A stretch of DNA of 64,000 nt from Candidatus Binataceae bacterium. GTDB taxonomy: Bacteria; Desulfobacterota; Binatia; Binatales; Binataceae. Shown in pieces: positions 5,414-29,017 of the stretch. The position numbers and the translations under genes are program-made. The number at the start of each line of letters is the position of its first letter. Position 1 is the stretch's first letter. The stretch covers positions 1 through 64,000 of the forward strand of contig DASRHP010000005.1 of NCBI GenBank assembly GCA_035650475.1. Direction: 5' to 3'. The notes beneath the pieces were generated by a model. The model searched no databases, was not told the origin of the DNA, and saw only the letters and a program-made list of their open reading frames with translations.

Positions 5414-5522
5414 GCCTTATCTTCCGGAGCGCGTTCGCCCCGTCGGAATTAGCACCAGCACCCTGGGCGGGCCGGTTGCTGCGGCATCATCGGGCCAGTC
5501 CCTCCGCCGCTCTGGATAAGGC
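5414..5522 (-). promoter_or_regulatory. SAM-I riboswitch aptamer (S-box leader)
   Basis: On the minus strand the P1 arms GCCTTATC (5522-5515) and GATAAGGC (5421-5414) enclose the hallmark conserved blocks in order: AGAGCGGCGGAGGGACTGGC, then CCGATGATGCCGCAGCAACC, then GGTGCTAATTCC. These are the core of the S-box SAM-I aptamer. SAM binding normally stabilises P1 and lets the downstream terminator form, shutting the operon off when methionine is plentiful. This places the sulfur-carrier operon under methionine/SAM control. Confidence 0.95.
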
Positions 5523-20371: not shown

Positions 20372-21640
20372 ATGAACGCAATCCGTGCCGGTGTGACGCG
20401 GACGACCGTGACGCGCACCGGCGCTTCGAAAGGGAAAACTGCGTTGGCCAATCAGTCGTTTCCGGAACTCCAGCCGGCGGCGCGCGTGCTCCTCGGCCCC
20501 GGCCCTTCCAATGTCCATCCGCGGGTGATGAAGGCGATGCTCTCGCCCGTGGTCGGCCATCTCGACCCCGACTTTGTCAAGGTGATGGAAGAGCTCAAGC
20601 GGATGCTGCGCATCGTCTTCCGCACCTGCAACGAGATCACCTTCCCGGTCTCCGGCACCGGCTCGGCCGGGATGGAAGCCGTGCTGGCCAACCTGGTCGA
20701 GGAGGGCGACGAGGTCATCGTGGGCGTCGCCGGTGCCTTCGGCACCCGCCTGGCCGACCTCGCCGCGCGCCTCGGCGCCCGGCTCCATCGGGTGGACGCC
20801 GAATGGGGCCGAATCGTCGAGCCGGCAAAGATCGAGCAGGCGCTTGCTGCCGCCAAGACGCCCAAGCTGGTCGCGATCGTGCACGCGGAAACCTCCACCG
20901 GTGTCCATCAGCCGATCGAGGAGATCTCGAAGATGGCGCACGCGCGTGGCGCGCTGATGGCGGTGGACGCGGTGACGTCGCTGGGATGCGTGCCGCTGGA
21001 GATCGACGGCTGGCAGATCGACGCCTGCTATTCCTGCACGCAGAAGGGAATCGGCGCGCCGCCGGGACTGGCGCCGGTGACCTTCAGCGAGCGCGCGATG
21101 CAGGCGGTGCGCGCGCGCAAGACACCTTGCCGCTCGTGGTACTTCGACCTCGCGCTGATCGAGAAGTATTGGGGCGCCGAGCGCCTGTACCATCATACCG
21201 CGCCGATCACGATGAACTACGCGCTGTACGAGGCGCTGCGGATCGTGATCGAGGAGGGGCTCGACGCGCGCTTCGCGCGCCATCGCGCCAACGCCGCCGC
21301 GCTCCAGGCAGGGCTCGCGGCGATGGGCCTCAAGTTCGCCGCTCAAGAAGGCTACCGCCTGCCGCAACTCACCGCAGTCAGCGTGCCCGCCGGGATCGAT
21401 GACGCCAAGGTGCGCGCGCAGTTGCTCGAACTCTTCAACGTCGAGATCGGCGCCGGACTGGGGCCTTTTCGCGGCAAGGTATGGCGGATCGGCCTGATGG
21501 GCGAATCGTCACGGCGCGAGAACGTGATGCTCATCCTCAACGCGCTCGAGACGATCCTCGAATCGATGGGCTACGAGATCGCGCGCGGCAAGTCGCTCGA
21601 GGCGGCCGACCGCGCGTTCGACGGCAGCGCCGGGCGCTGA
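20372..21640 (+). CDS. Class V aminotransferase, alanine-glyoxylate/serine-pyruvate type
   Basis: 422 residues. LLGPGPSNVHPRVMKAM is the family's opening motif and the PLP lysine lies in CTQKGIGAPPGLAP. The closing segment LGPFRGKVWRIGLMGESS binds the substrate carboxylate. Such enzymes transfer amino groups to glyoxylate, giving glycine. Divergent placement beside glcDEF suggests a short route glycolate to glyoxylate to glycine. The ATG at 20372 is chosen; a nearby TTG would add two residues. Confidence 0.88.
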   Translation: MNAIRAGVTRTTVTRTGASKGKTALANQSFPELQPAARVLLGPGPSNVHPRVMKAMLSPVVGHLDPDFVKVMEELKRMLRIVFRTCNEITFPVSGTGSAGMEAVLANLVEEGDEVIVGVAGAFGTRLADLAARLGARLHRVDAEWGRIVEPAKIEQALAAAKTPKLVAIVHAETSTGVHQPIEEISKMAHARGALMAVDAVTSLGCVPLEIDGWQIDACYSCTQKGIGAPPGLAPVTFSERAMQAVRARKTPCRSWYFDLALIEKYWGAERLYHHTAPITMNYALYEALRIVIEEGLDARFARHRANAAALQAGLAAMGLKFAAQEGYRLPQLTAVSVPAGIDDAKVRAQLLELFNVEIGAGLGPFRGKVWRIGLMGESSRRENVMLILNALETILESMGYEIARGKSLEAADRAFDGSAGR

Positions 21641-25811: not shown

Positions 25812-27029
25812 TCAAACCGCTCGACTATGGCCCATCCCAAGCGCAAGCGCCATCGCCACGGCCGCCACCACGGCGGCGCCCCGATAAGGCGCCGCCGGCC
25901 CCATCGCCTGGTACAGGACTCCCCCCGCCAGCGGCCCCACGATGCGCGCGAGCGACAGCACCGACTGGTTCAGCCCCAACGCTTCGCCCTGAAGCTCGCG
26001 GCCGGTGCGGCGCGAGATAAGCGCGGCGGCCGCGGTGCTGCCGAATCCGTAGCCGAACGCGATCAGCACCAGCATCGCATAGAGCGCCGTGTGCGAAGGC
26101 CAGCTTCCGAACGGGGCGAGCCCCGCGGCAAGCAACGCTGCGCCTGCAGCCAGGAGAATCGATTCGCCGGTGCGCGGTGCCAGTTTGCCGATCAGGTAGC
26201 CCTGCGCAAACGCCTGCGTCAGGCCCGCGAAGGCCAACAACCCGCCGACGCCCGCCGCCGCATAGCCGTAAACGGCCGGCACCGTCAGCGCGAACGTCGC
26301 CTCCAGCGCGGCAATCGCGAATGTCAGCAGAAAGGCGACCGCCAGCAAGGGCGCGATGGCGCGATGGCGTTGGAGACTGCGCAAAAGCGGCGGCCGCCAT
26401 CCTGCCACAGCTCGGTGCGGCTGCGGGTGTCTGTCCTGCCAATGCGATTCAGGCAGGCGCACCGCCGCAAAGATCAAGTTGGCAAACGTCAACGCAGCGG
26501 CGAACAGCACGGGGCGGCGCAGACTGCTTGCGCCAAGCAGACCGCCCAGCGCGGGCCCGAGCACGAAGCCCAACCCGAACGCCGCGCCGATCATTCCCAT
26601 CGCATGCGCACGCTTCGCCTCCTCGGTAGTGTCGGCGACGTAGGCCTGCGCGGTCGAAATCGTCGCCGCGCACGCGCCGTGCACCGCGCGCGAGATCAAG
26701 AGCCCGGCGAACGAGTCCGCAAAGGCGTAAATCGCGTAGCTCAGCGAGGAACCGAACAGGCCGACCATGATCACCGGACGCCGCCCGATCCGATCGGAGA
26801 GCCGCCCGAGCAGCGGCGCACAGATGAACTGCATCGCCGAGTACGCGGCGAGAATCAGGCCGATCGCGCCGGCGCCGACTCCCAGGCGCTCTGCATACAT
26901 CGGCAGGAAGGGAATCACGATGCCGAAGCCGAGCAGATCCAAGAAGACCGTGATGAACAGGACCAGGCGCGCCGCGCGGCCGGGCGTCGCGGCCGACGCC
27001 GCTGGCGGAGAAGCTTGCGGAATTTCCAT
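25812..27029 (-). CDS. MFS transporter, TetA/multidrug-efflux type
   Basis: 405 residues with twelve predicted helices. LLGRLSDRIGRRPVIMVG is the loop 2-3 motif A of the MFS drug:proton antiporters, and GFVLGPALGGLLG is the motif C that marks exporters. The ATG at 27029 is chosen, as the longer frame upstream has no membrane features. A substrate cannot be named. Confidence 0.85.
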   Translation of the reverse strand: MEIPQASPPAASAATPGRAARLVLFITVFLDLLGFGIVIPFLPMYAERLGVGAGAIGLILAAYSAMQFICAPLLGRLSDRIGRRPVIMVGLFGSSLSYAIYAFADSFAGLLISRAVHGACAATISTAQAYVADTTEEAKRAHAMGMIGAAFGLGFVLGPALGGLLGASSLRRPVLFAAALTFANLIFAAVRLPESHWQDRHPQPHRAVAGWRPPLLRSLQRHRAIAPLLAVAFLLTFAIAALEATFALTVPAVYGYAAAGVGGLLAFAGLTQAFAQGYLIGKLAPRTGESILLAAGAALLAAGLAPFGSWPSHTALYAMLVLIAFGYGFGSTAAAALISRRTGRELQGEALGLNQSVLSLARIVGPLAGGVLYQAMGPAAPYRGAAVVAAVAMALALGMGHSRAV

Positions 27030-27141
27030 CGGGTCTGCTCGCCAGGGAGTGCGGATGAGGAAACCGCATGCAGGCGCGGCAGTCAAGCGAGCAACGCCGA
27101 TGCGCGCGTCAGACCGGGCCCACTTGCGCGGCGGGCGCTCG

Positions 27142-27462
27142 CTACTGCGTGTCCGCGCGCGCGGCAAAGCGGTAAACGATCTCGCCGGAACGCGCATAGC
27201 CGAGCTGTTTGCGGATGAGCCGCTCGAGGTAGCGGTCATCGCCCTGCAGCCGGCGCAGCTTGATCTTCAACGCGGCGTTGGATTCGAGCAACCGTGCGTG
27301 AACGACCTCCAGCCGGCCGCGCTCGGCGCGCAGGGCGAGCAGATCGCGCAGGCCCAGTGGGGCGAAGACGACGTCCAAGGCGAGTAGCGCCGCGCAGGCG
27401 GCCAGCGTGAGCGACAGCCACTCGCGGCGCACAAACCGGCTTAAGCGTCGCACGGAGGCCAT
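27142..27462 (-). CDS. ftsB: FtsB/DivIC-type septum formation protein
   Basis: 106 residues from the ATG at 27462. A short basic cytoplasmic start, one transmembrane helix (LSLTLAACAALLALDVVF), then a coiled coil (LLALRAERGRLEVVHARLLE) and the family's closing pattern ERLIRKQLGYARSGEIVYRF. FtsB bridges FtsQ and FtsL in the divisome. The TTG at 27489 would add nine residues but has no ribosome site. It is an isolated gene here. Confidence 0.85.
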   Translation of the reverse strand: MASVRRLSRFVRREWLSLTLAACAALLALDVVFAPLGLRDLLALRAERGRLEVVHARLLESNAALKIKLRRLQGDDRYLERLIRKQLGYARSGEIVYRFAARADTQ

Positions 27463-27589
27463 CGTAAAAAGGCTTGCGTCGAACTTCAAGGCCGCTTATG
27501 AATGAACGGCATTTTAATCCGGCGAAAGCCGAAGCGCGGCAAAGCTTCTTGCCGTTTTAAAATTTCTTTATAAATGATCGTCGATTCTC

Positions 27590-27618
27590 TTGATCTCGAT
27601 CCGATGCATTCTTATAAT
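27590..27618 (+). promoter_or_regulatory. Strong sigma-70 promoter before the lysine-rich peptide gene
   Basis: TTGATC, a 17-bp spacer and a perfect TATAAT. Transcription would begin near 27625, giving a GC-rich leader of about 78 nt with stem-forming potential before the small gene at 27703. Confidence 0.75.
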
Positions 27619-27702
27619 CCGCTCGCAGGCAGGGGCCGCGAGGAGGCCCGCCGAAGGGTTTGAGGTGCTTGTCCCGCAGCGGCGATCGTGAAGGAGGTGT
27701 CT

Positions 27703-27795
27703 ATGCCAGTTAAGAAGAGAAGTTCTGCGACCAAGTCCAAATCGAAGCTCAAGACGAGTATGAAGAAGAAGGCTGGCAAGAAGAAGAAGAAGTAA
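27703..27795 (+). CDS. 30-residue lysine-rich basic peptide
   Basis: ATG with AGGAGG 6 nt upstream encodes 30 residues, half of them lysine (15), plus one arginine, ending in five lysines; there is no acidic residue. The composition recalls histone-H1-like tails and other tiny nucleic-acid-binding proteins, but no family can be assigned. A consensus promoter stands 85 bp upstream and an intrinsic terminator 95 bp downstream, so this is an independent, probably highly expressed unit. A second hairpin (CCTCCGGA-TTT-TCCGGAGG) follows the stop. Too small for most gene callers. Confidence 0.75.
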   Translation: MPVKKRSSATKSKSKLKTSMKKKAGKKKKK

Positions 27796-27889
27796 GGGCC
27801 AAAGGCTTTCCCTCCGGATTTTCCGGAGGCTGGCTAAAGATGCCGGGCTTGCTGCTGGGATAAGCCGGGGTGAGTTGGCCCCGTAACCG

Positions 27890-27922
27890 GAGAGGGCTCC
27901 TGAAAAGGGGCCCTCTCTTTTT
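27890..27922 (+). terminator. Intrinsic terminator after the lysine-rich peptide gene
   Basis: GAGAGGGC (27890-27897) pairs with GCCCTCTC (27910-27917), followed by TTTTT. It ends the short transcript started by the promoter at 27590. Confidence 0.85.
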
Positions 27923-27982
27923 CTGTCGCTCGTATCACCCGCGGCTTGCCGCAGGCGGCTTCGCGGGCGCAACGTTGATCCG

Positions 27983-28795
27983 ATGAGCACGCGGCTTGGT
28001 CGCTTCCCGGCCGAATACGAACGGCCCGAACCGCTGAAGTTCGCCTGGCCCATCGTGCTTGTTCCCGAGCTGTTCACCACCGCAGACCATCTCGCGGTCC
28101 TGCGCGGCTATCTAGCAAGCCTCGGATGGGAAGTTTATACGCCCGACCTGCGCGCGGCGTTCGATTGCGCGCCCGCCAGGCGAGGAGGCTTTGAGGGCCT
28201 TGCGGCGCGCCTTGAACAGGCGCTCAGCGCACTGGGCCGCGACGTTGTCCTCGTCGGGCACGGTCTGGGCGGGCTGCTCGCGCTCAAGGCCGCGGAGCTC
28301 GCGCCGGTGCGCGCCGCGGTTGCGATCGCGCCGATGCTGCCCGGAGTGCGCTCGCGGCTGGTGATGCGCGCGGCGAATTGGCGCGCGCTGTGGCTGGGCC
28401 GCGCGTTGGCGCCGCCGCGCGGCGCCGCGCTGTTCCATCTGATGGCCGATGCCGAACCGTTCCAGCGCCAGGCGCTCGTGCGCGCTCTGGTAGCGGACGA
28501 CGCGCGCGCGGCGATGGATGTCGTGCGCGGCAGGGTGCGTCTCGAGCCGACCCCGCGCGGCGTCCCACGGCTGATCGTGACCGGAGATTCCGACCCGTTC
28601 GTGCCTCTGGAACACGCGACTCGTCTGGCCGAACGGATCGGCGCGGCGACTGCGGTCGTGCCCGGCCGCGGCCATTGGCTTGTCGGCGGCCGCGGTCTGG
28701 AGCGCACGATGGCGGCGGCGCAGCGTTTCCTGGTCCGCAACCTCGGCGCCGACTTGCTCCTCCTCTATCCTGAAGAGTTCGGAAGCGAGGACTGA
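27983..28795 (+). CDS. Alpha/beta-hydrolase-fold protein with glycine at the nucleophile position
   Basis: 270 residues. Topology and motifs are those of an alpha/beta hydrolase: WPIVLVPELFTT at the start, GHGLGGLLALKAAE where the nucleophile elbow should be, GDSDPFVPLEHA and the histidine in VVPGRGHWLVGG. The elbow reads G-H-G-L-G, so the usual serine is replaced by glycine while the acid and base sites look intact. It could be a non-hydrolytic family member or use a different chemistry. It lies alone between the lysine-rich peptide unit and a FAD enzyme. Confidence 0.78.
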   Translation: MSTRLGRFPAEYERPEPLKFAWPIVLVPELFTTADHLAVLRGYLASLGWEVYTPDLRAAFDCAPARRGGFEGLAARLEQALSALGRDVVLVGHGLGGLLALKAAELAPVRAAVAIAPMLPGVRSRLVMRAANWRALWLGRALAPPRGAALFHLMADAEPFQRQALVRALVADDARAAMDVVRGRVRLEPTPRGVPRLIVTGDSDPFVPLEHATRLAERIGAATAVVPGRGHWLVGGRGLERTMAAAQRFLVRNLGADLLLLYPEEFGSED

Positions 28796-29017
28796 GTTCC
28801 ACCGGTTGCCGGGTGCTACCCTGAGCGAAGTGAGCAACGCGAACGGAGTCAACGGGTCTCGAACAGCTTCGCGCAAGCGAAGCCGGTAACCGGCTATGCA
28901 TCCGCGAAGCGTTCTTTAATCGCGCCGCGCTCGCTTGATCCGGCGAGCCGCGCGGCGCGATAAGAGAACCACGCGCGGCGCGCGCCCAAGCGGCGCGGCG
29001 CAAGCCAGCCTCGTCGA

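Follow-up and report, generated by a model that had tools for sequence, protein, structure and literature searches.

In the icaR mRNA of Staphylococcus aureus, the 5′ UTR pairs with the 3′ UTR of the same transcript, and the 3′ UTR covers the Shine-Dalgarno sequence, according to the portion of the report available to us (PMC3868564). The available sections of a second account describe type I toxin mRNAs, hok and aapA/IsoA, in which a small ORF is enclosed by a long-distance interaction between the 5′ and 3′ ends, the Shine-Dalgarno sequence is sequestered, and both 3′ trimming and an antisense RNA are needed (PMC6733600). Bacterial H1-like proteins, for which our sources are likewise partial, are represented by the C-terminal tails of AlgP and PhaF and by chlamydial Hc2; they are lysine-rich and of low complexity, carry K/A/P repeats and vary in length with repeat number. 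Here, we analyze a small gene of the Binatia, uncultured soil bacteria, which, with a probability of roughly 0.55, we read as giving a strongly transcribed mRNA that codes for a histone-H1-tail-like polycation and closes on itself by an end helix.

The window, by which we mean the whole stretch of 64,000 nucleotides that was analyzed, is contig 5 of a 3.83-Mb Binataceae genome that is 95% complete. On its minus strand, a SAM-I (S-box) riboswitch (5414-5522, 94.6 bits) precedes ORFs that we take to be ThiF/MoeB-like and then threonine-synthase-like. The mini-gene lies on the plus strand. Its sigma-70-type promoter, TTGATC-17-TATAAT (27590..27618), is the sole promoter-like match in 2.5 kb, where 0.3 would be expected, and the -10 region, AATAAC..TTTCTATAAT, is kept at most loci of the family. 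With a start placed about 7 nt past the -10 box, the predicted 5′ UTR spans 27625..27702; it holds GCTTGTCCCGCAGC (27667..27680), the conserved and covarying 5′ strand of a long-range closing helix (P2), and a Shine-Dalgarno sequence, AAGGAGG (27691..27697), that is conserved at the family loci. The ORF (27703..27795; ATG at 27703, TAA at 27793-27795) encodes 30 amino acids, MPVKKRSSATKSKSKLKTSMKKKAGKKKKK, and stands alone in the 64-kb window among ORFs of 20-120 amino acids with at least 20% lysine. Downstream follow a 3′-UTR hairpin P3, CCTCCGGA..TCCGGAGG (27811..27829), which is apparent in the sequence and the minimum-energy fold and varies in sequence among the family loci; the 3′ strand of P2, GCTGCTGGGATAAGC (27851..27865), supported by alignment pair counts, RNAalifold and the minimum-energy fold of the window transcript; directly 3′ of it, the hairpin P4, CGGGG..CCCCG (27866..27883), found by RNAalifold and in the minimum-energy fold; and an intrinsic terminator hairpin with a T-run (27889..27918, then TTTTTC). 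The terminator comes from a scan whose matches as a class do not exceed shuffles (3 found compared with 2.6), and RNAalifold predicts the same helix. A sequence-only reading of this DNA had proposed promoter, Shine-Dalgarno sequence, 30-codon frame and terminator as one unit encoding 15 lysines. All four elements are where it placed them, but the 30-residue peptide has 14 lysines; a count of 15 fits a 35-codon frame that starts at an upstream GTG. The unit is more than a chance assembly: almost every genome of the family has the frame, the start region and the UTRs at the corresponding position.

A DNA search gave matches at E 0.01 or better in 31 of 57 genomes, mostly from the same family, the Binataceae (f1 in our numbering of Binatia families), and the peptide profile A1 matched 36 of 41 Binataceae genomes, once in each. 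These 41 genomes hold 35 frames that are intact by the profile, one frameshifted copy, and three shorter copies at ftsB, namely lysine-rich ORFs of 21-25 amino acids (L108-L110) in genomes without a profile match; of the two other genomes without a match, one (G007) is 53% complete and the other (G034) has no detectable ftsB either. The weakest of the 36 matches (G024, E 0.6) is the copy with a frameshift in mid-ORF (L078, G024:C178 near 21097-21150), which may reflect a MAG or assembly error or decay; that genome also seems to lack the P4 hairpin. ORF lengths in the family run from 21 to 36 codons and change in frame. Within 16 within-genus pairs, differences at codon positions 1, 2 and 3 number 30, 24 and 83, and 62 codon differences are synonymous, compared with 46 that are non-synonymous. 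The divergent ftsB/DivIC-family gene (27142..27489 on the minus strand of the window; Pfam PF04977, E 3e-12) lies upstream of the mini-gene in 32 of the 33 loci that could be oriented, the remaining one being a contig end, and an alpha/beta-hydrolase homologue was detected downstream in 18 of the 33; the underlying synteny table counts the window and leaves out L078 and L079, where the script found no ORF. A lysine-run pattern has two unrelated matches in the window's own genome; as it misses the window gene itself, it says little about further copies. Conserved frame, third-position bias, single copy and the fixed neighbor ftsB bear out the earlier proposal of a self-contained unit that encodes a lysine-rich peptide. 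That proposal was to fall if the RNA structure were kept and the frame were not; it stands, because both are conserved.

Two features escaped the sequence-only reading, namely the pairing between the UTRs and the distribution of the gene across the class. In the Binataceae alignment, GCUUGUCCAGCAGC in the 5′ UTR is complementary to GCUGCUGGAUUAAGC in the 3′ UTR, and in other genera both strands have changed; at L017, for example, GCUCAGU-CAGCGG pairs with CCGCUG-A-ACUGAGC. With a MAFFT alignment of 33 Binataceae transcripts as its sole input, RNAalifold predicts P2, the terminator, and P4, the last with GC/AU exchanges on both sides (columns 330/350 of alignment A4). The 14 pairs of P2 are formed in 84.4% of the alignment cells, compared with 79.4% in shuffles (0/500), 8 of the 14 are changed on both sides somewhere (1/500 shuffles), and covariation is 0.250, compared with 0.176 in shuffles (0/500). 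Further standard pair types are not above shuffles (367/500), and controls in which P2 is slid along the alignment are clearly worse (15.6-52.9% paired). The window transcript folds better than 200 of 200 shuffles (z -3.56) and has P2 in its minimum-energy fold. A caveat for the helix is that GC-rich RNA forms long folds easily. The 5′ strand of P2 precedes the ATG by about 25-75 nt, and the 3′ strand comes just ahead of P4 and the terminator. An anti-Shine-Dalgarno pairing of the P3 arm and a start-codon pairing, CUGGCU/AUGCCAG, also suggested themselves in the alignments but were rejected, as several genera lack them; P3 itself is not universal either.

The pairing was also scored by swapping UTRs between loci. 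With one locus per genus (29 genera) and a score that admits at most one bulge or mismatch, cognate UTRs sum to 933.5, compared with a mean of 731.5 (sd 21.9) for swapped ones, and 0 of 200,000 permutations are as good. With one locus per family (8 families), 495 of 40,320 permutations are as good, a modest result. A gapped local score on 18 genera (1 of 200,000 permutations as good) did better than unconstrained duplex folding of whole UTRs, which saturated, separated less well (37 of 100,000, 18 genera) and was abandoned. The three scores draw on overlapping loci, the scoring was refined after the first two results, and all three comparisons leave out L076 and L077, which have less than 120 nt of 3′ sequence. 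Against 825 in-locus controls placed at random with the same geometry, 33 genera average 32.0 compared with 25.9 (Mann-Whitney p 7.5e-9), with only 13 of the 33 exceeding the 95th percentile of these controls. Swapped UTRs are not beaten at L075 (rank 52 of 56), L144 (41), L100 (30), and L148 and L161 (26 each); L125, L167, L172 and three f7 loci are also individually unconvincing against the in-locus controls. Taken as a whole, coding and the end helix are well supported, and it is the function that we infer.

In 107 other Binatia genomes, profile A1 gave 5 weak matches (E 0.33-0.76). By an ftsB search (found in 23 of 26 genomes), the lysine-run pattern (25 and an overlapping 15 genomes) and the stretches beside ftsB, lysine-rich ORFs with a Shine-Dalgarno sequence were read in 21 of 25 non-Binataceae Binatia genomes and in 10 of the 12 families sampled; none was read in the other four genomes (one f2, one f6, f3 and f12). 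They encode 13-112 amino acids: 13-15 in f2, 68-78 in f4, 34-75 in f5, 36 and 112 in f6, 25-40 in f7, 29 in f8, 26-30 in f9, 96-106 in f10, 60 in f11 and 27 in f13. Most lie near ftsB, at about 0.2-3.8 kb where both could be placed on one contig, and the f2 genes are on other contigs. An ORF that is presumably enolase-like adjoins ftsB in some f7, f5 and f2 genomes. Longer H1-like proteins rich in KA/KP occupy the same locus in sister families; at L127, L144 and L145, the same-locus proteins have 96-112 amino acids and AAKKKK/ATKKK repeats, which suggests that in f6 and f10 the gene may have grown by repeat expansion. The sequence-only reading had suggested that the peptide could bind nucleic acids, compact the nucleoid or act on ribosomes, and the longer H1-like proteins of the sister families agree with this. 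Profile A3, made from the H1-like versions, matched none of 148 genomes, its source genomes included, so that its empty answer means nothing. A DNA pattern scan of genome contigs returned 11 records, ten from Proteobacteria/Deltaproteobacteria/Binataceae MAGs and one from Hyunsoonleella; the latter and a single viral-contig match were put down to chance, judged by their reading frames. The gene is probably ancestral to Binatia.

UTR primary sequence differs between most families, and the arrangement of P2 recurs in other sequence, as TTTGCCTGTGAGGGTG/CACCCTCACAGGCGAA in f4, CTCGTGCGGAGGGA/TCCCTTCGCACGAG in f8, TTCTCGCCTGAGA/TCTCAGGCGAGAA in f9, AGTGTCTGTG/CACAGACACT in f11 and GCTTCGCTTC/GAAGCGAAGC in f5. 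The families f2, f7, f9 and part of f6 have a common core, CGCCTGAG/CTCAGGCG, and are therefore not independent. In f2 (L148, L151, L161), a second helix between the UTRs, GGGAGGGTT/AACCCTCC, crosses P2 around an ORF of 13-15 codons. The crossing helices would make a possible pseudoknot around the ORF, a form that the folding program used for f2 cannot show.

Together, these data suggest a model in which the strong promoter yields a short monocistronic mRNA of about 300 nt, with ends as predicted from promoter and terminator. Its product would be a very small, lysine-rich and probably disordered polycation, comparable to an isolated histone-H1 tail, and P2 would bring the mRNA ends together in a loop that encloses the ORF. 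Averaged over 33 genera, the Shine-Dalgarno sequence is unpaired at 0.57 and the AUG at 0.42 (0.70 for the Shine-Dalgarno sequence of the window), so that direct masking of the Shine-Dalgarno sequence is not what unites them; f2 departs from this, its Shine-Dalgarno sequence pairing within the 5′ UTR. Since P2 lies upstream of the Shine-Dalgarno sequence and leaves it uncovered in most genera, we read the closure as mainly shielding the ends from nucleases and tuning initiation, rather than stopping translation. By analogy with AlgP, the peptide may bind nucleic acid (nucleoid or RNA) or polyphosphate as a multivalent counter-ion. The window's own genome also has five HU/IHF-type matches. The conservation of frame and locus and the 5′-3′ complementarity are computational results; the stability role and the binding partner are what we infer.

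The RNA rather than the peptide could be what is selected, with the P2-P4-terminator scaffold serving as a small RNA or factor binder and the lysine ORF being accessory, or supplying an RNA-binding partner that the RNA encodes itself. We consider such a dual-function or mainly non-coding RNA unlikely, though it has several points in its favor: the UTR pairing persists while the f2 ORF shrinks to 13-15 codons, the second f2 helix forms a putative pseudoknot with P2, and promoter and terminator would release a free-standing RNA of about 300 nt. Moreover, the Rfam 6S model (RF00013) has no match anywhere in the window's own genome (95% complete), and 6S identity for the mini-gene was considered and set aside. 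A tmRNA was found elsewhere in that genome, and the ORF has its own Shine-Dalgarno sequence and ATG, both of which speak against tmRNA identity. Third-position bias and in-frame length changes, however, are those of a coding sequence, the ORF reaches 96-112 amino acids in f6 and f10, UTR primary sequence changes from family to family, and the pseudoknot is putative, as the folds leave out crossing helices. A more far-reaching version, in which a structural closed RNA, possibly pseudoknotted in f2, encodes its own oligolysine partner, would make the gene a class-wide self-encoded ribonucleoprotein with an ORF of 13-112 codons and an end helix that is kept while its sequence changes; we regard this as doubtful.

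The peptide reading itself admits several variants. The small proteins bTHX and mycobacterial bL37 are of comparable size and charge, and a ribosomal or ribosome-associated protein would likewise be single-copy, present almost throughout the family, highly basic and provided with strong expression signals; lengths from 13 to 112 amino acids, little fixed sequence beyond lysine and the lack of a Pfam or NCBIfam match make such a role improbable. That the mRNA encodes a type I toxin silenced by 5′-3′ folding, as for hok or aapA, is suggested by the small basic peptide and the long-distance helix, the same logic as in the available description of AapA. We give it very little credence, since in the family the gene is single-copy and keeps its chromosomal place, the peptides have no hydrophobic segment and P2 mostly leaves the Shine-Dalgarno sequence free. 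As regards an antisense RNA, a simple promoter scan of 26500-29000 gave no minus-strand promoter-like site. A short lysine-dense ORF followed by a terminator could also be the leader peptide of an attenuator that governs the downstream gene. This is the least credible option: the alpha/beta-hydrolase homologue was detected in 18 of 33 loci and undetected in the rest, ORFs of up to 112 amino acids are too long for a leader, and the terminator comes about 95 nt past the stop. We retain the mRNA for an H1-tail-like polycation as the main reading.

Searches of Pfam and NCBIfam with 7 proteins apiece gave no match at E 1, and the window peptide likewise has none in either; low-complexity filters limit this test. 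Rfam gave no gathering-score match at the gene or at 14 other loci. The portions available to us of the literature on Binatota, H1-like nucleoid proteins, UTR pairing, small lysine-rich proteins and 5′-3′ toxin mRNAs do not describe the gene, and in the Binatota genome paper (PMC8262859), the main text mentions neither histone nor lysine, small RNA, enolase or ftsB. Almost all Binataceae, and ten other families of Binatia, carry a gene that has no family model and that ordinary annotation may overlook. Its products include H1-tail-like proteins as short as 13 amino acids, and its mRNAs form a natural series that keeps 5′-3′ UTR closure by compensatory change while the ribosome-binding site as a rule stays unhidden, which makes the role of end-to-end pairing in bacterial mRNA directly testable.

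With the H1-like proteins, in so far as our partial sources describe them, the Binatia proteins share the lysine-rich low complexity, the K/A/P repeats and the length variation by repeat number; lysine makes up 32-69% of the ORFs read, and some Binataceae versions contain little proline or alanine. Unlike AlgP, PhaF and Hc2, they are 13-112 amino acids in all and have no folded N-terminal domain and no family match. The product also differs from those described for hok and aapA, being a soluble-looking polycation encoded in single copy beside ftsB. As in the available account of icaR, the 5′ UTR of the mini-gene pairs with the 3′ UTR of the same predicted mRNA; unlike in icaR, the long-range helix lies upstream of the Shine-Dalgarno sequence, which, unpaired at 0.57 on average, is not sequestered.
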